Assembly: GCF_029227915.1 (NCBI RefSeq)
Contig: NC_079887.1
Location: 22,317,650 to 22,381,649, forward strand
Source of the DNA: Hydractinia symbiolongicarpus
Taxonomy: Eukaryota; Cnidaria; Hydrozoa; Anthoathecata; Hydractiniidae
Reading direction: 5' to 3'
Length of the DNA: 64,000 nt
Position 1 is the stretch's first letter. Every line of letters starts with the position of its first letter. Positions 656 to 52,976 of this stretch are shown here, in pieces. The translations under genes were made by a program, and so were the position numbers. Below the pieces are notes generated by a model, which was not told where the DNA came from, did no database searches, and was given only the letters and a program-made list of their open reading frames with translations.

Positions 656-2579
656 GATTGCACATCTTTTATTTACTATTGTATATTATTTTTACTTCAA
701 AGTTTTTGACTGTTTACAACTTCGCAAGCTTATCACCTGACACTTCTACGATGCTTATAGGCCTGACCATGTTATTTTAAGCAGTTGTTAAAGTCAGTAA
801 TTTGAACCTGTATTTTCAAAAAAGTCCTAGATAACCATAATGGTGGTTGTAGTGGAAACTATTTTTATTTTGCATTTATTCTAAAAGACAATCCATTCAC
901 CTTTTTTTAAAAATTAACTAACTACAGTATTTTAGTCAACCCATTGTTGAGTTGAGAAGCAACCAACATTTGCACAGAATATAAATGAGACCCTTATATG
1001 GTTCTTTTTGTATTTCTTTTTCTTTTTTTTTTAGATCTTACAGAGTTAGTACAAGAAACCTCTTCTATGTGAAAATTTTAAAGAGCTTATATGTAATCGG
1101 ATTTTTCTGAATTATTTATTCTTTATTTATAATATGTGTTTACTATATGGTGGTGTATTTTTTTCTATTTCAAAATGAATAATTAACTTATATTTCTTTT
1201 ATGATAATATATTTTAGGAAGTTTCGCATATGTGTATAAAAATATGTTGTTTCTTATTAACTAAGATGCTAATTATGAATTTTTATAATATAAACAGATT
1301 ATGTTGAATTTATAAAATAAAGTTTTGCAAAAATGAAAGTAGCTTATTTTTACTTGAAAGAATAAAAGTATGGAATTATGAAATTAATAATTTTAATGGA
1401 CCTTATTTTTAAAACATGAATGAAAAGTAGCGTTATCAAGTTCAATCAACTCTTTTTAAAATATAATCTGAAGTGCATGCAGGTTTGTAACTTACTGAAC
1501 TAAATGTTATAAATTTAGGATTTTTTTTTCACTGTCTAGTTTTGAATTCTGCTTTGAATGGTAAAATTACATTTATGTTGTAATAAAATAAAAGGAAAAA
1601 AAATGGCGATGAACAGTCAAAGTAACAAGAAGAACTAAACCCGGTAATCACTAAAGTTAGCACGAAAGAAATCGTTGTCAGTGTTTCCTTTGAAGTCAGA
1701 TTTATTTTTTATTGATAACATGAAAATATTTTTGTCACATATCAGTCTTTCCAGAATCCTTTTTGAAAAGAAACAGCTATTTACTTTTTTAATTTCCTGG
1801 ATTTTTGGGAGTTTTCGGAATAGAATAGTATTTGTGAATATAATATTTTATATAAGCCGGTCTCTGTTGTGACTAGATATCATCACAAGTGCTTGTATCT
1901 GATTGGTTGACAAATAAGTTAAAATAGATTTTAGTATCTTTTTTTCTCAATGTTTACTCTTGACCCTTCAAAATAATACACAGATAACATTTTATCTGTT
2001 TTAAAAGCTTTGATGACTCCACAGTGAACTCTGATTGGATAATCATAAAATAAACTGTGATTGGATAATTACTCCATGAGCTCTGAATGGATGATATGCA
2101 GTGAAATCAGATTGGATAATCTCTATGTTAAACTTTTTTTATTTAAGCTTTATTTTACTCAACTCAAATGGACAAACTATTTACAATTGGCATTTGTTTG
2201 GAACGATTAACTTTCGTTTTTGGACTACGAGCAAGTTACAAATACTCTTCTTTGAGTTATTTTGTTTATTCATTTCCTTGTTATCATGGTTAGATAAGAG
2301 TATTACTTTCAAAAAATTGAAGTAATCTTTTGGTGAGGTTGTCATGGTAACATGACTTGATTATTTATCATACTCACGTATTGATTATATAATTATTTTT
2401 CCAACATTTCATATTTTTATACTTTTCCTAGTTAGATCTTGATACTGTATGTTTCTAAACTGTCTATTATAATTGCACTATGTTGGTATTTTATTTCACG
2501 AATCTTGAGAATTTATTAATTACCTGTTCTGCTAAAAGGTTGTTCCTTTTTGTTTTGATGTTTTAGATATACATTAAAG
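656..2579. other. 3' UTR and intergenic AT-rich DNA
   Basis: This holds the probable 3' UTR of the upstream gene (polyA signal at 1316-1321) and then AT-rich DNA. Near 2030-2110 there are three imperfect repeats of the phrase TCTGATTGGATAAT. A pyrimidine-rich acceptor ends just before the heparanase start (TGATGTTTTAG, ending at about 2566). No gene was seen. Confidence 0.5.
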
Positions 2580-4010
2580 ATGAAGCTTGTTTTCATTGCA
2601 GCATTTGTGCAGTTGTGTTTGGGCTTGGATATGCCCATCAAAATTGACCTTTCAAAACCAGCTGCAATTGTGGATAACAATTTCTTATCGCTGACTCTTG
2701 GTTCTGATGCACTTAAATTTGATTTTAAACACATAGATTTAGACTCAGAAAAGTTGCTTTCGTTGGCTAAAGGATTAACTGGTCATGAAAACCGAGCCGA
2801 GTTTTACTTTCGAATTGGTGGCACAGCAGCTGATCATATTGAGTTTGAACCTACGATGTATCGTTTTAATGCCACAGAGTTTGATGAATTATGTAAGTTT
2901 TCCTATGATGTTAGATGGAAACTTATTTTTGACCTGAACTCTTTGGAAAGAAAACCTGATGGGTCTTGGGATCCAACCAATGCAGTGGAGCTTATCGATT
3001 ATATTATAGAGAAGGGTTATTTTGTACAGTTTGAATTGGGTAATGAACCTGACTTGTACCCTAGTCATCTTAATATAACAATTCCTCCTGAACAATTAGC
3101 TAAAGATTTTTATTTGTTGCGTCTAATTTTAAATGAAAAGACACGAAACCAAGCCATGCTTGTCGGTCCCGATGTGGCTACTCTGGACCGTTATCATTAT
3201 TTTGGAAAGTTTTTGTCAAGTGTGCAAGAAAATGTCCTTGACGCTGTCACGTTTCATCACTATTATTCATCAAGCAATAATATTACCACAAAAAATTTTA
3301 CATCAGTGACATATCTTGACAAGTTTTTAGGTTATTGCAGAGAAGCATTGTCAATAATTAAATCATCCTTTACAAAATTCCCCGCTCCACCTGTATGGAT
3401 TGGCGAAACCTCCAGCACCTACGGTGGAGGGAGTCGCCAAGTTGGAGAATCGTTTGCTTCAGGTTTTGTTTGGCTTGATAAGTTAGGGATTGCAGCACAG
3501 ATGAATATTAGCATTGTGATGCGGCAATCTTTAAAAGGTGGGTATTACTCCTTGCTGGACAGTCATTATAACCCGAATCCCGATTACTGGAGTTCGTTAC
3601 TGTACAAGCAACTTATGGGAAGAACGGTCTTAAAAATTACCGGTTACCTTGAATCTGGGAGGGAAATCCGTGTGTATGCGCATTGTGTCAATCGGTTCAG
3701 TGGGCGTGGTTATCAACCTGGATCTGTAATTTTGATGGCTTTGAATATAAACCCAACAGAAGAAGCAAGAATTTATCTTCAAAATGATTTCAAGTCTTTA
3801 AATGCTGACCAATATTTATTCACACCTGCAAATGGAAGGCTAACTGATAATTCTGTAAAGTTAAACGGACATGTTTTAAAAATGGTTAATGACACTGTGG
3901 TCCCTGATTTGGATCCTGTCCGAGTTAAACAACCATTTATTTTACCAGCTTTATCTTATGGTTATTTTGTTGTTATTGGTTCGTATGCCTCTGCTTGTAA
4001 TGTTGTGTAA
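2580..4010 (+). CDS. HPSE: Heparanase-like glycoside hydrolase (GH79), single coding exon
   Basis: The 476-residue protein starts with a signal peptide (MKLVFIAAFVQLCLGLDMP) and continues as a GH79 endo-beta-glucuronidase. The acid/base motif FELGNEPD puts the proton donor at Glu156. WIGETSSTYGGG puts the nucleophile at Glu276, about 120 residues later, as in animal heparanases. Heparanase cleaves heparan sulfate chains in lysosomes and the extracellular matrix. Human HPSE is 543 aa; I did not try to define the linker that is excised from the human proenzyme. Several N-glycosylation sequons (NATE, NITI, NISI) fit a secretory protein. The whole coding region is one exon, which is unusual beside the intron-rich neighbours. 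An acceptor-like TGATGTTTTAG lies about 13 bases before the ATG, and a polyA signal AATAAA is at 4237-4242. Orthology to HPSE rather than HPSE2 is inferred from both catalytic Glu being present. Confidence 0.9.
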   Translation: MKLVFIAAFVQLCLGLDMPIKIDLSKPAAIVDNNFLSLTLGSDALKFDFKHIDLDSEKLLSLAKGLTGHENRAEFYFRIGGTAADHIEFEPTMYRFNATEFDELCKFSYDVRWKLIFDLNSLERKPDGSWDPTNAVELIDYIIEKGYFVQFELGNEPDLYPSHLNITIPPEQLAKDFYLLRLILNEKTRNQAMLVGPDVATLDRYHYFGKFLSSVQENVLDAVTFHHYYSSSNNITTKNFTSVTYLDKFLGYCREALSIIKSSFTKFPAPPVWIGETSSTYGGGSRQVGESFASGFVWLDKLGIAAQMNISIVMRQSLKGGYYSLLDSHYNPNPDYWSSLLYKQLMGRTVLKITGYLESGREIRVYAHCVNRFSGRGYQPGSVILMALNINPTEEARIYLQNDFKSLNADQYLFTPANGRLTDNSVKLNGHVLKMVNDTVVPDLDPVRVKQPFILPALSYGYFVVIGSYASACNVV

Positions 4011-5206: not shown

Positions 5207-7589
5207 ATGGCGTTAGTAGATTATGTGGTGCATTGTTTTTTTGGTTGTATTCTTGTTCTCTACACATTTCACTTTTTACTGAGGACGTTGTTACAAACGA
5301 TGACTAATAGTTTAACGTATGGACAGCGTTATGTTATATCGACAAAGTAAGAGAGTTGTTCTGGAAAGTTTGTTGAGTATAATTAAATTATTTTTTTGAA
5401 TTTGTTCAATCCTCTGTTAAATGTTAAAAGGGTGATCACTTTTAAAAAATGGATTTTCTTGTGGCTGTTGCAAATGCCTCGAAAGATATTTTGTTGTGTT
5501 ACTCCTAAGAATTTTTTGGCACTAATTCATCGGCACTAACTTTTTTTCATTTTTTTTAATGGGGTGACCAGAGCCACCTTTGGAAGAAGGGCCAACGAAT
5601 TATAATACATATTTTGACCATTTTCCAAGATTACTGGTGGTAACTGCTCAAGTCTGTATAATTATCTCCATCTTTTACGTTTTAGAATCGTGTCAGGTGT
5701 GTTCGCATTAGTGACCTCCGTCATAGCTGCTCGAACGCTCGTTTCAACAACAGACATTATGCATCAACCAGACACCGTGTTGGAGACCTACACTATCTTA
5801 ATGTGCGGTTACTTTGCGTATGACATTATAGTCATGTATAGAGGGTTCGTCGAAAAGCTAAGAGACGCGAAAAAACTTAATAATCGCAATATGAAGCAGT
5901 TAGTGAAAGCGTTTCTACGTCGCGAATTATTTATCGTCATTCATCATGCTGTTTTACAGTGTTTAGGCTTGCCTGTTGCAGTCGTCATGGTAATAAGTTT
6001 ATTTTTGCACATTTGTTCAAATCGTGTGACATGTTAAAGGTGTGTCTAGAGTTTTGACACTTTGGACAGTGATTGAATGTAACAGAAAAGTCGTTGATGA
6101 ATATTTTTACCCGCCTCTGTCGCTCAAAAATAAGTTAACATGTAGAAACCACCTTTTAAATTGTTAGTTAAAGGTAAATGCGAATACAGAAACAGTATAA
6201 GCATATAAACACTCACAGTTTGTATCAAAGCTTTCAGCCGTAACTGATGATGACCGCGGTTACGGCTGATAGCTTTAAAAAATATATATTTACAAAGTAT
6301 AGACAGTGTTTACATGCTTAAATACTGTTTCTGTATTCGCATTTTCTTTTAACTAACAAGTTGAAAGATGGTTTCTCTATGTTAACTTAACAGTTAATGG
6401 GAGGGGAGGGTAACACACTCTCTTTTCATAAGCAACACGAACTGGTAAGCTTGATTTCAATTGACGCGTTAACTTAATTGTGCAACAGCTGAGCCTAAAA
6501 GTACAGAAACATAATTAGGATTTAGCTAAAATTTTGTGTTGCTTATAAAAAAATCGTGTACAGTGACTATAAGTCCCGACCTACCTATTTCTGTGATTAT
6601 ATTCAGAATGTCTGTTGAACCTTAAATACCTTAGTATCAGACTAACTATTCCTAAAGAGATTGGAGGAAAAGGTTAAAAAGCGCGTTATGATAATATTGT
6701 CTTCTGATAATTTGTTGTATTTGCAGTGTTTAAGAAACTTCCCTTCATTTACGTTGGAATGGTTGGCAATGTCATTTTTGTATCTTGTAATATTTCTATA
6801 TAGATATCTTCAAATAACTTACACAAAAAATACTATCAACGACTTCTTCTTTGCCTTGACTTCTTGCTTAAGATGACGAAACTTTTATTTTTAGCTGACT
6901 AGGCGTGGTTTGGGTGTATTTTTCATGGCTGGTGTATTCATAGCGGAAATTAGCACGCCGTTTTACTCCACAAGAGGAATATTAACAACGGTAAGGGGTT
7001 CGGATGTAGTTTTTCTGCGTTAAAAAATGACTGCTTTGTTTATATTCTGCACTCAGTCTGCAATTTTTATAAAATATTTTTTGTCGTATAAAAAGGGTAA
7101 ATATAAAGTAAATCGAATTTTATTGAATTTGTTTAGATTGGCAAAACATCAGGAGTATTTTATGAAGTGAACGGGTTGTGCTTCATGATCACCTTCTTCT
7201 TCGGACGAATATGCTCGTTTCCATATTTATACTACCGCTACTCAATATATGCGAATCTCCCTCTGTATCGTGTTCCCTTTAAAATTCCACTGTTGTGCAA
7301 CGTCGCAAGTTTCGCTTTCTTTGCGTTACAATCTTACTGGTTTTACTTAATCATTCGAACAGTTTTTAATTATTTGTTGAAGAGTAAATCCGCGCAGGAG
7401 TTAAAAGTAGAAGGTAATCATGCTGACGATAGAAAGGTAACGAATGGTCATGCAGTTAATGGGAATGGTCACGTGATCAGTAAAGGCAATCACGTGGTGA
7501 ATGGTGACGGACTCGTGGTGAATGGAAATTGTCACGTGATAAATGGGAATGGTCATGTGATTGATTCTGAGAGCAAGAAAACCCATTAG
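5207..7589 (+). CDS. TLCD3: TLC domain-containing protein, TLCD3 (FAM57) type
   Basis: Coding exons: 5207-5346, 5686-5989, 6895-6990, 7137-7589 (330 aa). All junctions are GT-AG and in phase. TLCD3/FAM57 proteins are multipass membrane proteins with a TLC (TRAM-LAG1-CLN8) domain, tied to ceramide and phospholipid metabolism. Recognisable blocks are YFAYDIIVMY (89-98), RRELFIVIHHAV with the paired His133-His134, GLGVFFMAGVFIAEISTPF across exon 3, and a final YWFYLIIR membrane segment. These match the TLCD3A/B order. Start choice: ATG 5207 opens exon 1 with a hydrophobic N-terminus, and its phase-2 end joins exon 2 as K47-I48. Residues from about 275 form a low-complexity tail of NGNGHVI-like repeats that vertebrate TLCD3 lacks. 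I cannot decide between 3A and 3B; the gene may predate that split. Confidence 0.9.
6131..6389. repeat. Long imperfect palindrome (MITE-like) in TLCD3 intron 2
   Basis: The left arm (TAAGTTAACATGTAGAAACC, then TTAGTTAAAGGTAAATGCGAATACAGAAACAGTAT) is mirrored by the right arm (ATACTGTTTCTGTATTCGCATT..., then GGTTTCTCTATGTTAACTTA). The centre near 6235-6275 is itself palindromic (AGCCGTAAC...GTTACGGCT). The result is one roughly 260-bp foldback, typical of a miniature inverted-repeat element. It has no coding capacity. Confidence 0.7.
7401..7586 (+). repeat. Coding repeat tract with three CACGTG sites (TLCD3 tail)
   Basis: The last part of TLCD3 exon 4 is built from degenerate units of the type AATGGGAATGGTCACGTGAT, encoding NGNGHVI-like peptides. 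CACGTG palindromes occur at 7470-7475, 7491-7496 and 7533-7538. The repeats also keep the antisense strand open, so the antisense reading frame here is a shadow. Confidence 0.75.
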
Positions 7590-30946: not shown

Positions 30947-39876
<8,930 letters not shown>

Positions 39877-41333
39877 CAAGCTTGAATTTTATACTGGTTT
39901 ATTATGTCACACCAATCACGTAATTTAATATGGTCGCCGTGTTATAGAATCCATCAACGTAAAGAGGATCATGCTTAGAATAAAATAGATCTAAATCGAA
40001 GTATATCTTAATCACCAACACTCTGGACAACTGCTAGAGTTTATTTCTGCAACTAATAGATATTATGTAACTTTTTATAGGACAGAACTGTCTATAACCA
40101 CAATGTAGTCTGTAGCGATGCATATGGTGTAAACAGGTGGTATATATCGCCATAGGATTACTTTGCAGCAGAGGTAGATCTTTTTGAAGCAAGAGAAATT
40201 TTGTATTAATTGGAAGCCTGTCCATATAACTTCTTTGTATTCTCCAACTTTTTACAAGCGTTTCGTACTGATACAAGAATTTTTTATTTGTAATAAAGTG
40301 CACCAAACTATGTGTTTTTCCAGTAAAATATCTACTTATTAAAAAGTATATTGAAAAATATAAATTGATATTAAAGCAATAATTTGTAATAATTAGTTGG
40401 TGGTCGAATTTTAGTCTTTTTTAATAAAGATCTTTCTGTGTATTTTCGTGTTCATATAAGTCGTCATTTTGTGTCGCTTCTTCAGATTAGACTTGGCTCG
40501 ATATCCTCATACACAACACGGATGATATGCCTCGTTTTTTGTTTTATTTACAACATGCTTATTTGTTTTTCAACTTGTTTATCACACTTTACAAGAGTAA
40601 AGTTTACAGGCTTATAATTTATGGATTTTTATTTACCTTTTAAACATCTGGTATCTAAGGTACGAAATAAATACTGCGTTATTGTATATATCTATTTTTC
40701 GAAAGAAAATTTCTCTGACAATTATGTAATTGTCTTCAATCTTCGTTAAATTATTTTTAACTAATGTGGATTTGTTGCACAAAGCTTTAGTTCTTAATCG
40801 GTGTCCCTCCTCTCTGGTTGAAGATTCAGGTTGTCGTGTGTAAAGAAAGGATGTTGCATAGGTAGAGGGATGACCTAACAGACAAGAGCTCAACCTACAT
40901 TTTCCAGCGAAAATCCCGAGCTATCAGTTCAATCTAATCGCTACAAAACGATATTTCTTTCACTGTTTTTTTTTTAACGGATTTTCTCCAAACACTTATT
41001 AAAAAGCGAAATATTTCTCGCAGGACGGGCTTTTTGCACAAATACATTTTAAAGCGGAAAACTGAACGGTAAACTTTTTATTACACATGGGATAAAAAGA
41101 TTTTGAAGACTTTGATTCGGGGAAACTCCGTTTCGCGGGCGTTCATAAGAAGGTAGCGTGAAATGAGCGGTGCAGTATGGAGAGGCAGAGGGGAGGGAAA
41201 AGGGGCTTAACCTTCGTTCCCATGGTTTTTACTTAGTGCAGTCCCTGGGAACGAGATTTAATTACTTATGTCGCAACTTACGACTTCTTTGCTTTACACA
41301 GCTAATAGACATAACTAAAACCACCAAAGCAAC
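39877..41333. other. Rab35 3' UTR and intergenic region
   Basis: No gene was seen. Near 41209-41257 an inverted pair (AACCTTCGTTCCCATGG ... CCCTGGGAACGAGATTT) belongs to a dispersed motif family. A strong acceptor, CTTCTTTGCTTTACACAG (ending at about 41301), precedes the next start codon by about 32 bases. Confidence 0.5.
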
Positions 41334-44300
41334 ATGGCTGTTAGGCAAGCGATTTATCGTTTTCCTGGTAATCTGACAGCCAGTAGTGCCAAAAGGGGTT
41401 GTCTTTTTACGAGAAATTTTTCAAAGGGTACAAGGCTACAAGGTAGATGCGCTTTAAATTTTTTGCTACGCAACTTTGGTGACCTTTGATGAATTAAATA
41501 AAGTTTAATAGGACCTTATATATTAGCTAGAATGTTACCAGGAGTGCCATCCATACTCTTCTTTTCACAAATTATATTGTTTGCACGTTTGGGAGTGGAA
41601 GTGGGGTATTGATTTAGAGTTTGATAGTGTACAGAGGTACTATTTCGCCATAGGTACAATTACGCCTGGAAGAAATAAATTCTGTTCATGCCACAGTCAG
41701 GCGTTTACACTTGCTTTTATTGATTTACGGCTCTTCTATGGATTCATCTTTAATAAAGTACAAGGTTTGAATAAGCGAAGTAAACTTCCGTGGACGGCTA
41801 CACCGTCTCTTTCTCAGACTCGTGATTCGCTGATCCTTTTTTTCCTCGCGACTGGTGTACAACTTCGCCAGAATTCATTTAGATAGATCTAAGAAAATTT
41901 ACTTTGTAAACCCAATTTTTTTACCTAGGCACGTCACAAGGAACTTAGAAATTAGTATTAAGCTGAGTTACATAAATTAGGCCACCCTAAAAAATATAAT
42001 TGGTCAGCGTCACCCGACCGACTCACTTTGAAAGGCGAAAGTCAAGTCAGGGAGTCGGTAAATTTGTAAAAAATAAACCAAACAATCCACAAACAATCTT
42101 CGACATGCAACAAAATCCACCATTTACCTTTTCAGCTTCAATTTTTATCCAACCGACCAACTCACTTTTGTAATTAGAAATGATTTTTGACTGTGGCCTT
42201 ACCCAGAATATCTTGTTTCTTTTTTACAGTTAAAAACCTAGCTGGCAAAATTGTACCCATGCTGGCGAAATTGTACCACTCCGGGTTCCATTTTTCCAGG
42301 CCATTTGGGATACACTTTATTTTTAATTGTCGGTATCGGGCTATGTTTAATATCCAAAATAAGCCACAACAGGGCGGCGCAACTCAAAGCGATAAGATAT
42401 AATACTATTTTTTCGTAAAAAGTGGCGAAATTGTACCATCATACGCTAATTGTTATAGTCGTAAGTTGGTGAGTTTGCGAGGTGTGAAGTCAATGAGCTA
42501 TCAAGCTGCAAAATTTTTCAAATTTTGACATCCAGAAAAATATGCATACACTCTTCTTGTCGATCTCCACCGTAGAGTTTTAAAAGTTATTTATATTATC
42601 ATGAAATTATATTTTCAGACATGATCACTAATTTCGAAAATGTGGTAAAAAAGTTGCGAAGAGTTGTAAAAAATGTATATATTTACGAATACGGCATTCT
42701 TTTTTCTACATGGTTTCGAATAGCAAGAAACGTATCCAGTGATCACTTTTAACCCCGTTGAATTTAAATATAGTATATAAGGGGCCATCGACAAACAGTT
42801 TTTGTCTCCGTTAATGGCAAATTGGCCGGTAGGGGGGGAAGGCGTAATGTATCGTCCGTTAAAAATATAAAAATAGAGACGAATCTCACTTTCTTACCTT
42901 TTTTATTTCTTTTAGGTAAATTGAAAAAAAATCAAATTAGAAAATGTTTCCACAGTAAAAATCCGCCATAATCTAGAATTGGTTATTAAAAAAATGTATC
43001 TCGTGTTCATATAAGAATTATACGTACAAAAGTTACACATACAAAATTCTATTTAACGGCAAATTTGCCGTTAACGGACACGAAAACTAACGTAGGGGAA
43101 ATAGGCTTGCCATTAAGGGGCAGGGGGAGGGGGTTCTGAGTCTACAGCAAAGTCTGAATTTGCATGGAGGACGGCAGTCGTTTGTCTTTTATTATAATAA
43201 AATCCCTTAAGGGTTTTGCGAGTTTATATTTGCGTGTTAAAAAACAATGTGCTCGCGAAGAAAAATTGGAGCAATTATATTTCTTGTAATAACAAGATAC
43301 ATTGTGTAAATGTATTGATAAGCTATTCTCTTAAGTATTAGCGTGAAGTAATTAAATAATAAAAATATTTCGCAAAGTTTTATATTACATTGCGCGAGAA
43401 TGTATTGTTGATTTAATTACTTAAAAAGATTCCAGCGCGTTTAATTTAAAAAACATATGAGAAGCATTGGTCACAACTATCAAATGACTCCTGCGTTTCT
43501 TTATTAAAAGAATACAACTACGGTTTATTTTTGTAAAACAAATGGTGTATATTCTGAAATAAAAAACATTTCCTTCTTAACAAACAACGTAAAGTAAATC
43601 CTTCCGCATACTTTTTTATTGAAACAAATTAAAACATTTCTATCGCCGTTCTTTTTTCTTGAACTTTTAAAACGCGATCTAAAAAATCTTTTCTATGCCG
43701 CTTTTCGTTTATAAACTTTTAAAATGCGATCTAAAAAAAACATTTCTATCGCCGTTTTTCGTTTTTAAACTTTTAAAATGCGATCTAAAAAAAACAGTTC
43801 TATCGCCGTTTTTCGTTTATAAACATTTAAAATGTGATTTAAAAAAACATTTCTATCGCCGCTTTTCGTTTTTAAACTTTTAAAATGCAATCTAAACTTT
43901 TATATTTAATTACTGCAATTAAAAATTTCAAAATAGTTTGCGCAAAATAGACGTCTTAAACAATTGATCGCGTGGATTCATTGTTTATCAGCAAGGCAAT
44001 TATTTTCTTAGAAAAACAAAAGCTATCACAATGTTATTGTTCTGTGTAACTATTCATGCGAGTTTCGCGTCCGTGGTAGATTACATTCAGACTGTACTGT
44101 AGCGGTCAATTTGCCGTTAATAGAGACGAAAACTGTTTGTCAATGACCCAAAGGGTTTTCTTTAATATGGATAATTTTCCAGGGGAGTTGGATCAGGTCC
44201 TTTTTCAGTCACTCACCAACTGGTGACTCGCCAACTCACTAATTCACCGACTGGAAGATTACCTATACTCATTGATTTGTTGAGGTTGAGGTTTTTTATA

Positions 44301-47300
44301 AGTTTTGCCTGTTTTTTTGTTTTTAGTGAGTTTTGTTTATGATGCAATTATAAAGACAGGCAACATATTTGGTGGTGGCACTGACGCTAACATATTTTTA
44401 CGCATGATTGGTGAACAAGGCTCAACTGATGAGATAATGTTAGTTAGAAAGAAAGGAGATCTAGAACGAGGAATGTAAGTACAATTGTGTACTTAAAACA
44501 GGCTTTTGATACACTTATGTAGTGATTATGCACATCAATTTACATCTTTTACTGTTATTCATATTTAGAGGTTTAGTATGGTGTCATAGCAGGTTTCTCC
44601 TGTGCGACGATGACCGAATTTCCAGGAAGTAGTTGTGTGCTTTTGCATAGAAGATTAACCAAATAGCCAAAATATAGCCATTTATGCTTTTTCCAGAAAT
44701 TTCTTTTTGCATAACAATATTGAGAGTTTACTTCTGTCTTTAGGGTAAATATTTATAACTTTCCAGCTGATGATGTTGGTAAATTAAAGAAGTTAATCAT
44801 ACGTCATGATAACACAGGTTTTGGTCCTGCTTGGTATTTAGAAGAGGTAAAGTAAATTTTGTGTTTTGGAAATTGTTTTGGCTCGTTTCCATTGGACTGA
44901 AAACACCATGCAGAGTGATAGAGAAGAGTAGAGTAGAGATTATTAAAAGATTTGGACCAGCTAACAGAAATTTTTACTATGTAAAATCTTATATATTAAT
45001 TCCCTTGCGTGAGTAAAACTGTGAGTCCACGACACGGAAATCACGGGTCACTTTCTTATGACGTGGCCGTACGCTAAAATTTAACTAAAAAAATTAGGGA
45101 TGTACTGCATAGAAATCGCACATAAGGTGTAAATATATAACCCGCTGGTAATAACGATATAAATATATATACCCTTATGCCAAAAAAATCTATGTTAGCA
45201 TATATATATAGGTATCGCTACATATGAAACGGTATTAGATATTCACAAAGCATACGGACTGTTAAATGCAGTTCCTAGCATAAAACGGAAATTGTGTTTA
45301 CGAAAAAGATGGCTGTTCTTTTTTAGTATTCTCTACTCTTTCATTCAAAATAAATCTTTAAAAAAACATTTGAAGAAGAGCATGGTTTTATAAATTAATC
45401 ATAGCAAGGTTCTGTAAGGTTTTTTCATGTTTTATTTTCAGTTTTGATTATATTATTGTTGCCAGACATGTTTTATAGCTAGCATCATAAAAAGCCAACC
45501 ACCACCAACAACTAGCTAGCTAGCTAGGAATATATATATATATATGTAGCCATGTTCTTTATACCTAGCTAAGTCTCCAGTTTATATTTAAGTGACTAGC
45601 TATTAGCTGCTGTAGCTAGCTAATGCTAGCTTTAAACTAAAGATTCCCAGTATATATATTCCCACAAAACACATCAAACGTTATTAACCCTGAAAATTTT
45701 AAACATTTTCCTGGGTTTTTTTTGGTTTGCGAAGTTCTTTTCCTCCAAATATTCTGAAAATAAAGTTCAGAAATTACTTATTTTTAAAATGTAAATTTAA
45801 TTTGTTTCAAATTGTGGGCAAAAACCTTAATCAGCATGCTAAAAGAACTGACTTTTCTTAATTTAGAATTACTAAACACAACCATTTTCTTACAATTAGT
45901 GTAAACTTTTGTGCGTATGGCTTATATTTAATACACCAAAAGAGCTACTTTGTTGATTTCAATTTTATACTCTTTGTAAGCTATTTTTTTCTTCTTTTTG
46001 ACATTTCTGTTTTACCACTCAATTTTTACATTTTATAAGTTATTTGGAACAGAATGGTATGAAATAGACCAAAATACCTGATCTTAGTTGTTTTTAATTT
46101 ACAGGCTGTGTCTGTGAAACTTTAAGGGGAACATTTGGTGGAAGACAATGGCATGACATATACTGATAGAACTGATTTTTGTTGTGTTAGATGTTATATC
46201 TGAACCTTTTTGACATTTTATGTTAATTTTGCGAGGAAGGGCCATATATATATACACAGAAGAAGAATTCAATTTTACACCTTGCAAGCTTTGTTTTTCT
46301 ATATTTTGTATAAATTCTTACTGGGGAGGACTCCGTGCAATATATCGAAATGACTGATCCTTCTCGATTTAAATTTGATGTGTTCTAAATCGTATATAGT
46401 TTTGGAAATTTTGTGTAAGATTTAATGGGTAAGGGCTAGATGCAATATGTCAAAAAAACTTTTTTTTGTTGAATCAGAAGCACTCCCTACAACCATTCTT
46501 TTTTTTACAGTTTGTGAAGCTTTTGTGAGGAAAGAGTGTATGCAATATTATCGAAATAACTGATTTTTGTTGCAAACTGTTTTTCTTTGGCATTTTGGAT
46601 TAAAATATTGTTTTAGAGGGCATATGCAGTAGATATATGTACTGAAATAGTTAAATTTTGCAAACTTTGATTTTGTCGTTACCTCTCATTTTTACATTTT
46701 GATTAAACTTTTGTGGGAGACCGTCGGTATGCGAAGGACCAAAATAAGAGATTTTAGTATTATTTAGAATTTGTATTTTGTGTTGCAAAATTGGTGCAAA
46801 AAGTGACATAAAATGAACTTATATACAGATTGATTGCTGTTGTTTAACATGACTCATTATGACTTATATATATATTTTATGAAAATTTGTGACAGAATAC
46901 TATGTGAGATTTGAAATTTTGTTTACTTTATTGATGGTAAAACAGCATGCAAATTGCTAAAAGGACTTTATTAATTTTAGGTTTAAACACCGTTATTTTG
47001 TTGGCATTTTGTCTAAAGTTTGGTGAGGAGGGACTGTATGCAATATATCAAATAATGTTTTATTGCATTATAATTTGTCCTTGCAAATCCCTTTTTTTAC
47101 ACCTTAGATAAAAAATTCTGTCAGAGGCACAATTTATTGTTTATTTTTCACATTGTGTGTCAACCTTTGGCAGGGTTTGCAATAAACTAACTGATTTTAA
47201 CATATACAATGAGAGAGATTTGTGTTTGACATTGATCAGCTTTTTTGTATATATGTGGCGTTTTAAGTGATTTAAATTTTATGGGTGAGATGTATGTTGA

Positions 47301-50300
47301 AATGCTTTTGCAAACTTCTTTCCGAATAATTTTCGCATTTGTCAGATGGTCAGAGCAAGTAATTTTAGTAGATTTAGATTTTAAATGTCACATAAATACT
47401 GCAGTTGTTGAAAACCTTTAATTTTTTTGGTCATTTATATAATAATGCAGATGTAAGACGCGCACTGCTGTATTGTTTGTTTTTTGATGGACATATATCT
47501 GCTACATAAATTAAATGGAATACAGTGGATTCTTCCACGGGAAACAGCTATAATAAATTAATATTGTACTGTTGTACTGCGGAAATTTTTGCAAACCAAT
47601 CATAATGCTCAGAATTATTCTCTTTGCATCATTCCACCTAGAAATGAACCTATAAGAATAATGTTTCTGACTGTCCACCAATAATGATGCTTACAATAAC
47701 ATTTTGTGATCAATTTTTTGATTTCTAGATCAGAATACGAGATGCAAAAGGTCAGTTATATACTTTTAAATGTGACTCCTGGATTGCAAAAACCGATGGT
47801 GAGGAACCAATCAAATTACTTAAAGAAATAAGTTATCAAAGTAGCACAACAAGCAGAGAAGTTGATCGGTGAGTAAAACCAACCGAAGATGTTTCTAGAC
47901 TGTCCACACTGAATGTGAGAAATGTCAGGAATTTCATAAATATAGGCAAAATGTCAGAAAAATTTGGTCTTTTTATGAAATAGCCGGAAAAAGTCAGGAA
48001 TTTTAGGTTTAGATGGTCAATCAGAACTATCTTCATTCCCCAAAATAATAACAAGTATTTTGAAATCGTCTTAAAAAAACTAGCAACCAATCAATGAGGT
48101 AATCTAAGGTTTTAATAGTATAAACTCCCCCCCCCCCCCCAAAAAAAAAAAAAAAGCTGGAAAAGTGACGAAAATGTTAGGAATTGTTAATACTGAGTGG
48201 ACACGCTGCTTTTATATGTTGTAACATCATGATAGGGGTCCAATTTCCTTGAGAAATATCGCACAATTGCTATTGTTTACAAATGTTTGTAAAATTTTGT
48301 ATTTGTTCATACATTCATGGGATAAGGTCATGTAAGATAAATTTGCTATTTACCCTAATTTATGAATTTTTCACAAGGGAAACGTCTGAAAAGCATGAGG
48401 ATTGATTTATCTTAACAATGCTATTTCTTTGAACGTCATGCTTAGTCATTTGTTTTCTTTATCCCTAATGTACTTGTGACCATTCTCAATGCCAAATCAA
48501 AACATTGATCATGCCCAAACTTGTCATTTTTTTAAATATTTTAAAGTTTTCATCTTGATTTTTTAGGATTTTTTGTTGTTGGTGTTTTAAAATTTGATGT
48601 ATGTGTTAATGCTTCTTAGTTTAGCTGACCTCATGGCAAATGAGGAGGATGCAGATGAAGAGGAACGTCTTGAAGGTGCCATGATTGATGTTGCCATGGA
48701 AACTGAAGAAGACGAGTTCGACGAAAATGTACCTTATGAAACAGTTAACAACGGTGAGGCTAGTTTTTATTATGCAAATTCATTAATCTGGTATTGACGT
48801 AAACAACAGACCACAGAAGTCAAATAAATCCATTTGAAGAATGAAATATATTAGCTAATCATTAGTGAAACGTAGTAAAAAGACGGCATACTTAAATGCA
48901 TTTTGTTTGCTCTATAAAGCCTATATGAATTTCAATAATAGCTATATTTCTCATTGTTTTTCTTTTTTACCTGCAAGAATGCGTGCGCATGTACAAACAT
49001 CCACAAAGTTTACAAACTTTGGCGAGTCATCTACAAACTTCACTTGTTACACTTCGCTTTAAATTTAGTGGATGAAGAGTCAGCATTCGTGGAACACCCT
49101 CCATCGCTGAGACACGCATCTTCGTTATCTCCAGCAGTGAAACATCTCATAGAAACTTACGGCATTGACTTCTTTAAAATCTCCGGAACTGGACCTCATG
49201 CTCGTGTGTTAAAAGGTGATGTTTTAGACTTTATGAAAGAAGAAAATATTACCACAAAAAGGAAATTCATTTCACGTCACGAACCTGTGTTGTCAACAAA
49301 TGCAGGTAAATACGTAAATGTTTTTTTTTAATGTTTCTTTAAATATCTTACTGGCGTATGAGAAAAGTGAGACCCGATACCCTATGTGATACCTGAGACC
49401 CTGACTAGATACTAAAGACCTAATACCCCATACCCTGATACCGAGACCCAAGACCCTTATTTTTTTTATTATCTTTTTTTTTTTTATTTCTTTTTTGAAT
49501 ATGAATGATAATAAAAACACATTTTGATATGTATATTTCTTCGTTATATACAGGAATATTTTTTTCACGTAATATGCGAATATGCTGCTGCTGGCCCAAC
49601 AATACTTTTATATCGCCAGGAACTACAATGAAACTAGCATCAAAAAAATTATTGTGTCAGCTCAAACATGAATCATCATTCTCGGCTTAACGTCCGTTTT
49701 CCATGCTAGCATGGATTGGACGGGGTATATTAATGACCCTCTTCCAATCTGACCTAGACTGTGTTAGATCTAAACTCAACTTCCTCTGTATCATGTCTGT
49801 CCTTATAACCTCCTGCCAAGTCTTTCTCGGTCTGCCTCTGGGCTTTGCCCCAGGGACCATCAAGTCTCTACACTTTCTTACCCAATTATCCTCCTCCATT
49901 CTTTCCAAGTGCCCGAGCCAATTCAATCGTCTTATCTGCATAACATCTGTAATTCTACGGATGCTTAGTCTGCTTCTTAGCTCATCCGAACTCTTGCTGT
50001 CTCTCAGACTGGCGTTACACATCCACCTAACCATTCTCATATCATTCCTTTCTAAACGGTAAGATCTTCCTGCTTCACTGCCCATGTCTCACTACCGTAC
50101 AACGTAACACTTCTTACACAGGCCTCATACAACCTACCTTTTAACTCAATTGACAAGACTCTGCTAGTAAACAAAGGAAGTAACTCTGAACTTTTTCGAA
50201 GCAGAACCTATCCTGCAAGTAACACTTCTTCCAACACTCCCTTCATTGCCCAACATATCACCTAAGTAACAGAAGTTCTCAACTATCTCTAACGAGCCAC

Positions 50301-52976
50301 TGTTGTACATCATTGAAGCTGGAATTCATTCTCTATAATCTCACCTTTGCAACGCTTGCATACAAACTAAATGTCAGCTCTTAACCTTCCACTAATACTA
50401 CTACACTTCTTATGTGCCCAATGCTTGCAAGTCTGACAAAAAATTGAGTTACTACCAACCCCTTTCCTGCAAACTCTACAAGGCCACATAAATGATTGAA
50501 ATATAGTAGACTTTTTTAAATTCATTAGAGAATGTTTGCTTTTTCGTTGTAGGGTCGAAATAACGCCTTTTGGTTTTCGAAACCACGATTAAATTTTGTA
50601 TATTGTCTGATGGAATATTTGACTGAAATTTTCCTCCACAACCATAGCAAGTTGATACATTTTTGTGGGTGTAGTTAAGAAGGAACAAGACATAACCATT
50701 ATCTGTTGGTACAGGTGGTGCTGGTTTATTCACTGTTGTTGAAGGTGGTATAGGTTGCGTTGATGGTAGTATTGAAGATGTTTGTATTGAAGGTGCAGAT
50801 GATACTATTGGTTGTGTTGAATATGAAATATGTGTAGTTGAAGTAGTTGAAACAATAGTAGGCTGCAATAACGGTAGCGTAGATGGTGTTTTCGTTTGTG
50901 CAGGAGCTGATGAATCGAATAAATTGATAAAACCTTTTTTACGTTAGCCGTCCCTTTTCTTCTCTGAGTTGCCTTCGTTTTCTTTTTGCCCGCGTTTTTC
51001 TTTTTTAAAAAAGTCCATTAAGTTTCTGAGATTAGGTGTCTTTTTTTCGCACCACATTCAACTTGAATGCAATGCAGACAGTATGCGCACATATTCCGAA
51101 AATAAGAAAAATCAGGGTATCAGGGTATTGGATCTGGGGTATCGGGTATCAGCGTCAGGGTATCGGGTCTCACTTTTCTCATATCCCTATCTTACTAATA
51201 TTAAAATGAGCAGAAGTAAAAAACTACTTTGCTGAAAAGGAGTACATTATTACCCTCCTTTTTAAGAAGTACGCTTTTCACTAAACATTAGTAATCCTAG
51301 AAATTGACTGGTTGAATGACTGATTGATTAATTGATTGATTGATTGGCGGATTGATTGATTCATTAACGATGAGATAGGCGTGAAATTTCATTTATTCGT
51401 CATTGCGCGAAAATTCGTACCAGGAAGGTATTTGTTTATGGAGGAGAATGTTATTCGTGTCTTTGTGTTGTTTTTATTTAGACGTCTTCAAATCAGTCCG
51501 AACCGACAGGGTTGATAAAGCACTGAAGCCCGCCCCTTCGAATTTATACCACAATCAGACGATTCTCACCACAGAGACAATTCAGAAAAACACAGAAAAA
51601 ATACCTCAAATATACTTATCAGTAAATTGCTTTATAGACAATTTTTTAAACACCGCTGCATATTTAGACGCTGAAACTATAGCCATCAAAAGACAAGTCC
51701 TACTAGCTCGTATGTTATGTAAGTGTTTGGGTGAAATTAGAGAGTTTGAAAACATGAGCGAACATGTGAATATTGAAGTAACATCCAATGAAAAAAGAGT
51801 AGTTTTTAGTGCGTGTGAACACGACAGTTTAGAAAATATGGTTGAAAAATACAAGGTATGTTTGAAGAATATATTATAAGGAATAGTCTGGAGAACTGAT
51901 TTTTATTTTGACGTGGTTTTGTCTAACTTTGTGATTTTGTAAGATAGCTTACCATAATCTTGATTTATCAACGTATCCCTTATTGGAGAGTATGTATGAT
52001 GTTATCAAATGCATAGTGCAGGAGGTTAACATGAAAAGATTGACTGTGGGATTTAATTGCACTGACTTTGGACTTTGACCTTATATATGTGATAAATGAG
52101 CCTATTGGACTCCAAGAAATAACATTCTTCTTAATTTGACATGATTGCTGGAACTCAGCGATTACACTGGGCGCTGTGATAGCGCTTTATTTAAAACTGT
52201 AGATAAATAAGTCATTTTTTACTGTGGGACCAATCCTAACCTTATATTGACTAAACTTTACCATTATAGTCACTTTTGTTTCTTATCCACTGCTTAAAAT
52301 GAAAACGAATACACTTGCTTGTAAAATGTAAAATATATGGGCAGGAATTTAACAAATTCTCCTTTTCATAGAGCTGCAAATATGCAGGCATTTCGGCTTT
52401 TTTTAAAATAGGAAAAGTAAAAGTCGGCGGAAAGGCTTAGTTGACAAAAAAGAAGTGATAGAGGTTGGTTGGTGGCAAAAAATTTGGTCGCTACAAAATA
52501 TTAGTCAATGAAAATTTTGAGCATGTTTTATCTACTTTTTTTACTGATTAGTTAATAATTTTATGATCTTTGGTGATACTTCTTTCTGTGAAATATCAAA
52601 GTGTTATAAGGCGTCAACCAACGAAGCAAATTTGATGAGGAACTGTACATTTTTACAGTTTGGTTTGTATTGTCAAATGTAATCTTTTTTATTTCAGAAT
52701 TCGAAAGAATATGAAGACGCAACTTGCGCACCGCGTTATGTAATCAATATATCCGAAGATGGAGTATCCAGACTCTCCTCCGTATTAACTAAAGGACAAA
52801 TTTTAAATATTAACTTTAGTGGAGTAAAGTTGTGTGTCAACGCAGACGGAGACGTCAAAAAGACGGCGACACTCTCTTTATCGTGCGACTGCCGAATAAT
52901 ATCAGACGATGTTGCTGCATCGTTGTTAGGGAAACTAAAAACTTGTATATCAAACCCGTCGTTACTTAATTTGTAA
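41334..52976 (+). CDS. PLAT domain + E3-binding (PSBD) domain + degenerate E2-like core protein
   Basis: Eight coding exons: 41334-41367, 44327-44474, 44744-44846, 47729-47868, 48620-48753, 49069-49305, 51482-51855, 52698-52976 (482 aa). All seven junctions are GT-AG and in phase. Residues about 14-125 are a PLAT/LH2 beta-sandwich (TGNIFGGGTDANIF, RHDNTGFGPAWYLEEIRI, CDSWIAK), a lipid- or membrane-binding fold. Residues 143-200 are strongly acidic. Residues 205-242 are a peripheral-subunit-binding domain (LSPAVKHLI, GIDFFKISGTGP, VLKGDVLDFM), which in E2 and PDHX proteins docks E3 or E1. Residues about 310-482 resemble a shortened 2-oxoacid dehydrogenase acyltransferase core ending TLSLSCDCRIISDD, where catalytic His is Cys455. 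No lipoyl domain was seen. Function is unknown; a PDHX-like scaffold is one guess. The first exon (only 11 codons) is the least certain part. Confidence 0.75.
42782..44149. mobile_element. TIR element in intron 1 of the PLAT/PSBD gene
   Basis: The left end (ATCGACAAACAGTTTTTGTC, then TCCGTTAATGGCAAATTGGCC) is inverted at the right end (GGTCAATTTGCCGTTAATAG, then AGACGAAAACTGTTTGTCAAT). A further AACGGCAAATTTGCCGTTAA palindrome sits near 43053. The interior is non-coding and contains a tandem repeat. Confidence 0.65.
43626..43895. repeat. Minisatellite of about 55-bp units
   Basis: Five imperfect copies of a unit containing TTTCTATCGCCGTTTTTCGT and AAACTTTTAAAATGCGATCT, inside the TIR element. 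The copies keep one plus-strand frame open by chance. Confidence 0.85.
45478..45640. repeat. TAGC-rich simple repeat
   Basis: Runs of CTAGCTAGCTAG at about 45510-45527 and again near 45590-45632, with TATATA between, in intron 3 of the PLAT/PSBD gene. Confidence 0.7.
46090..47350. repeat. Degenerate tandem array, roughly 100-bp period
   Basis: The phrase TGCAATATATCGAAATGACTGATTTTTGTTGC recurs in diverged form near 46337, 46440, 46541, 46626, 47038 and 47178. It alternates with TTTTGGATTAAA.TTTTGTG.GAGGG. It is an old satellite-like array within intron 3 of the PLAT/PSBD gene. Confidence 0.55.
48127..48155. repeat. C run followed by A run
   Basis: A homopolymer C tract directly joined to a homopolymer A tract in an intron. 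Confidence 0.9.
49357..51183. mobile_element. TIR element with GGGTATC-iterated ends in intron 6, host of a LINE fragment
   Basis: The left end TATGAGAAAAGTGAGACCCG is inverted at the right (CGGGTCTCACTTTTCTCATA). Inside each end are iterations of the pentamer/heptamer GATACCC/GGGTATC (49371-49455 and 51116-51169). A minus-strand ORF at 50476-50868 has a Ser/Thr/Pro-rich start and a Cys-rich module (CYGCGGKF, LIVVSKTKRRYFD). I recall that module as a recurrent transposon-associated type, though I cannot name the family. Confidence 0.6.
49695..50480 (-). mobile_element. 5'-truncated LINE, C-terminal part of reverse-transcriptase ORF
   Basis: The minus-strand translation contains a Cys-rich finger (CRVCRKGVG, FCQTCKHWAHKKC, CKRCKG; 50480-50340). 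After frameshifts comes the typical LINE ORF2 C-terminal region: MRMVRWMCNASLRD, RRLNWLGHLERMEED, KPRGRPRKTWQEVI and DWKRVI at 49700-50085. The catalytic RT core is absent and stops are present, so it is dead. It lies inside the TIR element of intron 6. Confidence 0.8.

Follow-up and report, generated by a model that had tools for sequence, protein, structure and literature searches.

Fungal E3BP keeps its lipoyl domain. The p45 protein of Ascaris suum, which Klingbeil is said to have described in 1996, is reportedly an animal E3BP that is without a lipoyl domain, with that domain simply being absent, i.e., with no PLAT domain substituted for it as is seen with the locus considered here. PLAT domains themselves are found in LOXHD1 and the lipoxygenases, proteins which, unlike the one described here, are without a PSBD (E3-binding domain) or E2 core; they are not known as mitochondrial scaffolds. 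In mammals it is via E3BP, or PDHX, that E3 is stably integrated into the pyruvate dehydrogenase complex (PDC), with the PDC of patients who lack E3BP keeping 10–20% of its activity, and human E3BP possesses one N-terminal lipoyl domain (PMC2880790). With fungal E3BP (‘protein X’, of Neurospora/Chaetomium), a PSBD is combined, much as appears to be the case here, with a reduced and inactive E2-derived core-binding domain, and the protein binds inside of the core via a motif M2, plus a motif M3; in the sections of that account consulted (PMC10156792), no mention is made of a PLAT domain.

The window, by which is meant the whole stretch of 64,000 nucleotides that was analysed, is contig C13, 22317650-22381649, of Hydractinia symbiolongicarpus. 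Within it, at 41334-52976 on the + strand, the gene model drawn from the sequence has eight exons that join in frame at AG/GT boundaries, giving 502 codons plus a stop, with no stops or frameshifts within the model and with an in-frame stop upstream of the ATG (at 41316, thus starting 18 bases before it). The first-pass annotation had proposed just such an eight-exon gene, encoding PLAT, an acidic linker, a PSBD, and a shortened E2-like core, and the exon joins along with Pfam matches, all of the latter above cut-offs for this gene, confirm it. The public annotation model, P0001, is of 507 aa, that is, the same protein but with exon 1 ending five residues later, and bears the name ‘dihydrolipoyllysine-residue acetyltransferase component of pyruvate dehydrogenase complex-like’.

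Exon 1 (41334..41442) supplies the start codon and a basic N-terminus, with its donor at 41427 in our own model or instead at 41442 in the public one, both in phase 1. The PLAT domain, based on domain matching, then begins in exon 2 (44327..44474), continues with its middle part in exon 3 (44744..44846), and ends in exon 4 (47729..47868), in which the acidic linker starts. That linker makes up exon 5 (48620..48753) and ends in exon 6 (49069..49305), which contains as well the PSBD and the start of a second linker, the E3_binding match itself being at 49128..49226 (C13:22366777-22366875; 42.2 bits). Exon 7 (51482..51855) carries the second linker and the first half of the E2-like core, as seen by fold comparison, and exon 8 (52698..52976) the second half of that core, a degenerate active-site motif as seen by alignment, and the stop codon. 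All are on the + strand. The order consequently is basic N-terminus, PLAT, acidic linker, PSBD, and then a shortened E2-type core without the active-site His.

The pairing of PLAT and PSBD, in that order, which the first-pass annotation had put forward for this one gene, is found elsewhere as well: PLAT precedes PSBD in all six of the proteins P0001-P0006, i.e., in five beyond that of Hydractinia, one of which (P0006) is from Clytia hemisphaerica, itself a CRISPR-editable species. Protein and profile searches scored ~7990 candidates sharing most words with the query, and distribution among other animals is judged within these. The protein search yielded eight proteins, namely the six with PLAT plus PSBD, a PLAT-only protein (P0007), and a lipoyl-bearing E2 (P0008). 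The profile search yielded 29, consisting of P0001-P0006, P0007, P0009 (from Schistosoma, with PLAT repeats), and 21 E2-type proteins at E 1.8e-8 to 3.9e-4. P0007, whose contig is of 1137 bases, opens with a basic N-terminus followed by PLAT and ends in an acidic tail; it may represent a fragment of a seventh PLAT-plus-PSBD protein. Proteins of this architecture, that is, already stand in public databases, and the architecture is a clear departure from the textbook form; in searches of the open-licence literature no report was found of PLAT paired with an E3-binding domain in the PDC or with a lipoyl domain, nor of a cnidarian PDHX.

Among the six proteins, Pfam cut-offs are passed by PLAT (PF01477) and PSBD in every case and by the E2 core (PF00198) in five, with P0005 falling below for the core. 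Mean pairwise identity, over 15 pairs, is 56% for PLAT, 58% for PSBD, and 35% for the core, along with 22% and 19% for the linkers and 18% for the N-terminus; invariant columns number 35/120, 14/43, and 11/180 for PLAT, PSBD, and core, respectively. PLAT is kept as strongly as the PSBD, which argues that PLAT matters to the protein.

As with mammalian PDHX, a PSBD is followed here by a presumably dead E2-type core from which the active-site His has been lost. The His of the DHR motif, an E2 acyltransferase trait, is absent by alignment from all six proteins, replaced by C, S, G, N, V, and G (human PDHX has Ser), with the motif reading SCDCRIISDD in the window protein versus SCDHRVVDG in human DLAT. 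An E2 fold is seen for the C-terminal core of the window protein upon fold comparison, and the core is E2-homologous yet, given loss of this His, predicted to be catalytically dead. It differs from the well-kept core of mammalian PDHX both in length, at ~180 aa being shorter in alignment than that of human PDHX and of DLAT, and in PF00198 score, which is 26-37 bits where above cut-off (30 for the window protein) versus 244 for human PDHX. Mammalian PDHX furthermore begins with a lipoyl domain, where here there is PLAT. The lipoyl domain (PF00364), that is, was seen in none of the six proteins, at E <= 0.01 for P0002-P0006 and at E <= 1 for the window protein, whereas human PDHX, as the positive control in the same scan (E <= 0.01), scored 65.1 bits. 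The earlier suggestion that the lipoyl domain is lacking, with PLAT found in its place, consequently holds across all six.

The linkers, too, are of a different kind. Those of human E2 and E3BP are Ala/Pro-rich (PMC2880790), whereas this E3BP/PDHX trait is absent from all six proteins, in which the linkers are instead acidic: between PLAT and PSBD they are 77-206 aa in length, 21-34% Asp plus Glu, and contain 6-10 Pro and Ala residues. The longest of these, the 206-aa linker of P0003, has repeated acidic units and compares with 77-107 aa in the other five. The N-termini preceding PLAT are, for their part, basic, with 5-10 Arg/Lys and 0-2 Asp/Glu among the six and, over the first 40 aa of P0001, 7 Arg/Lys and 0 Asp/Glu. 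This composition resembles that of a mitochondrial presequence and fits with a location in the matrix.

What these proteins may be, in a reading held here with moderate confidence and from sequence, is a divergent, non-catalytic E3BP of the mitochondrial PDC in hydrozoans, the lipoyl arm of which would have been replaced by a LOXHD1-like PLAT domain. The N-terminal presequence would in that case effect import into the matrix; the C-terminal E2-type fold, with its active site lost, would be lodged on the E2 core or within it; the PSBD would hold E3 (dihydrolipoamide dehydrogenase); and PLAT, on its acidic linker, would dock the PDC elsewhere, most simply to membrane lipid or to a partner protein. 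The transfer of acetyl groups and of electrons would then fall entirely to E2's own lipoyl domains. An E3BP lacking this domain should be workable given both the residual PDC activity of patients who have no E3BP, i.e., 10–20%, and the lipoyl-less E3BP reported from Ascaris.

Docking by PLAT could be to protein rather than to lipid, an alternative that is compatible with the E3BP reading and to which we would give not quite an even chance. By fold, PLAT being supported at that level, the best-matching PLAT rows are lipoxygenases, which speaks against this. Of 29 PLAT matches in the genome, however, eight loci were fetched for comparison, and the closest among these eight are one on contig C5 along with the repeats of a cluster on C7 (33-38% identical), with no lipoxygenase shown among the best. 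The C5 PLAT and the C7 repeats we label LOXHD1-like, and the PLAT domains of polycystin, LOXHD1, and DENND5 are candidates for protein docking. Calcium regulation, in addition, is not general among PLAT domains, with Ca2+ being associated with membrane docking in some lipoxygenases (PMC7436259). The C7 cluster itself is a dense one of PLAT exon matches, at ~6127000-6149000, and perhaps is a LOXHD1-type gene.

There is as well a further-reaching form of the E3BP reading, one that we consider to be rather doubtful. In it, the sole hydrozoan E3BP would have swapped its lipoyl arm for PLAT such that the PDC becomes tethered to the inner mitochondrial membrane, or to a fixed partner there, thereby placing the NADH of E3 beside its consumers, possibly under Ca2+ control. 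A natural swap of the arm for a domain familiar from membrane or protein docking would test whether the arm of E3BP is needed and whether the PDC can be anchored, and a bench approach is feasible as CRISPR editing is reported for Hydractinia.

Whether the E3BP position is otherwise occupied was considered by scanning the genome (480.9 Mb in 76 contigs), exon by exon and with the best candidates scored, with some stretches of that genome being N. The E2-core profile (PF00198) gave 11 exon matches corresponding to four genes. Three of these, on C2, have DBT as best match; four, on C6, have DLAT; and three, on C9, best match an oxoglutarate-type E2 and have a lipoyl exon nearby, pointing to DLST, which was not itself among the references used (human PDHX, DLAT, and DBT plus three bacterial E2s). 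In all three genes the DHR is intact. The eleventh match is the window gene. As the other three genes are DBT, DLST, and DLAT, the E3BP slot is without another occupant in the searched genome, and no lipoyl-bearing PDHX was seen in this exon-wise E2-core scan, some stretches being N. An ordinary PDHX should have shown, since with this same profile human PDHX scores 244 bits as compared with 30 for the window protein. Hydractinia thus likely is without a canonical PDHX, which answers, for the searchable genome, the question of a separate PDHX that the first-pass annotation had raised.

It would follow from a different possibility, that of an accessory paralogue, that a canonical, lipoyl-bearing PDHX exists as well, with the PLAT protein being a second E3BP specialised for a tissue, for a stage, or in some other way. 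The exon-wise nature of the scan, in which only best candidates were scored and some stretches were N, leaves a certain room for this, as does a human PDHX protein search in which, among the best 120 of 7992 matches, those with a species name were all from mammals, so that a cnidarian PDHX would not be visible there. The recovery of DBT, DLST, and DLAT exons, together with the expected detectability of PDHX, nonetheless makes the paralogue unlikely. Scans using PSBD (PF02817, E <= 0.001), which found only the window gene and DBT, and using lipoyl (PF00364, E <= 0.1), which found five places, by eye biotin enzymes plus DLST, are not used here as evidence in their silence, as each failed to pick up PSBD or lipoyl exons belonging to E2 genes known to be present.

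The partner of the PSBD can be approached using the traits distinguishing E3BP from E2 that are given in Forsberg 2023 (PMC10156792). Leu at +2 and a hydrophobic residue at +5 from the PSBD Asp, both E3BP traits, are present in 6/6 proteins, although this Leu is shared by human DBT and by one of two bacterial E2 examples having a comparable motif. The E2 trait ‘EKG’ occurs in 0/6, with its Gly alone retained in 5/6, and the E3BP trait ‘GxI’ similarly in 0/6, while Arg is found in 6/6 at the site of human E2 R383 and human E3BP I157. Mean PSBD identities, out of 38, are 13.3 to human PDHX, 13.0 to DLAT, 13.8 to DBT, and 13.3, 15.5, and 17.5 to three bacterial E2s. The traits are thus mixed, and binding of E3 by the PSBD is a prediction. 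It is considered improbable that the PSBD instead recruits E1, or that the protein belongs to a branched-chain or oxoglutarate complex rather than to the PDC. The E2-type Arg, and a PSBD as near to DBT as to PDHX, would be in keeping with that. Animal DLST is not known to carry a PSBD, so an E3 adaptor of the DLST complex is conceivable, with MRPS36 reportedly providing precedent for OGDHC. Set against this, ‘EKG’ is in none of the six, the DBT of the Hydractinia genome has a PSBD of its own, and the six-protein clade falls outside of the DBT/E2o branch in trees, albeit with long branches in play.

Descent of these proteins was approached by means of trees of PSBD plus core, of 29 rows and then of 14 of these. 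The six are placed together with full support, on long branches that give no firm joining with PDHX, DLAT, or bacterial E2p. A clade with human PDHX is neither found nor rejected (p-AU 0.418, in the 14-row, long-branched tree), and with a profile built from the six, human DLAT reaches 55.2 bits and human PDHX 50.1. Placement on PDHX, DLAT, or DBT consequently failed. Of the earlier proposal of a PDHX-like or E2-like scaffold, then, an E2-type core without the active-site His along with a PSBD stands, and orthology with PDHX is a possibility. As to how PLAT was acquired, exons 2-5, which encode PLAT and the acidic linker, total 525 nt and are flanked on both sides by phase-1 introns, forming a symmetrical 1-1 module of the sort classically moved by exon shuffling in animals. 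A single insertion plus loss of the lipoyl exons could thus have made the gene, the phases suggesting that PLAT and linker entered as one such exon module.

The contigs of P0003, P0004, and P0005 are 2314, 1873, and 1890 bases in length and have ORFs of 2028, 1674, and 1713 nt and, with the Hydractinia gene taking up 11.6 kb for 1.5 kb of exon sequence, they look like spliced transcripts. That the model fuses two adjacent genes, or describes a decaying pseudogene, is thus hardly credible despite the long introns 1, 3, and 6 (2.9, 2.9, and 2.2 kb) and divergent core, since both halves are joined in the five relatives, three on these short contigs, since PLAT and PSBD are well conserved, and since the window gene's frame is intact, all of which rules the artefact out, short of every relative being mis-assembled, and bears out the preference of the first-pass annotation for one gene.

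Inside of intron 6, at 49690-50088 (-), is a 133-aa frame that by eye resembles the C-terminal end of a non-LTR retroelement protein, with no Pfam match. Elsewhere in the window, at 37859-38787 (+), are three overlapping frames of 305, 256, and 253 aa, two of which were scanned without a Pfam match, and which possibly are a repeat array. Two ORFs at 5618-6034 and 7137-7586 (+) match the two ends of a TLC domain (TRAM_LAG1_CLN8), the first below cut-off, and possibly are exons of one gene. A 483-aa ORF at 2559-4007 (+), lastly, is heparanase-like, matching the N-terminal domain of glycosyl hydrolase family 79 at 82.7 bits.
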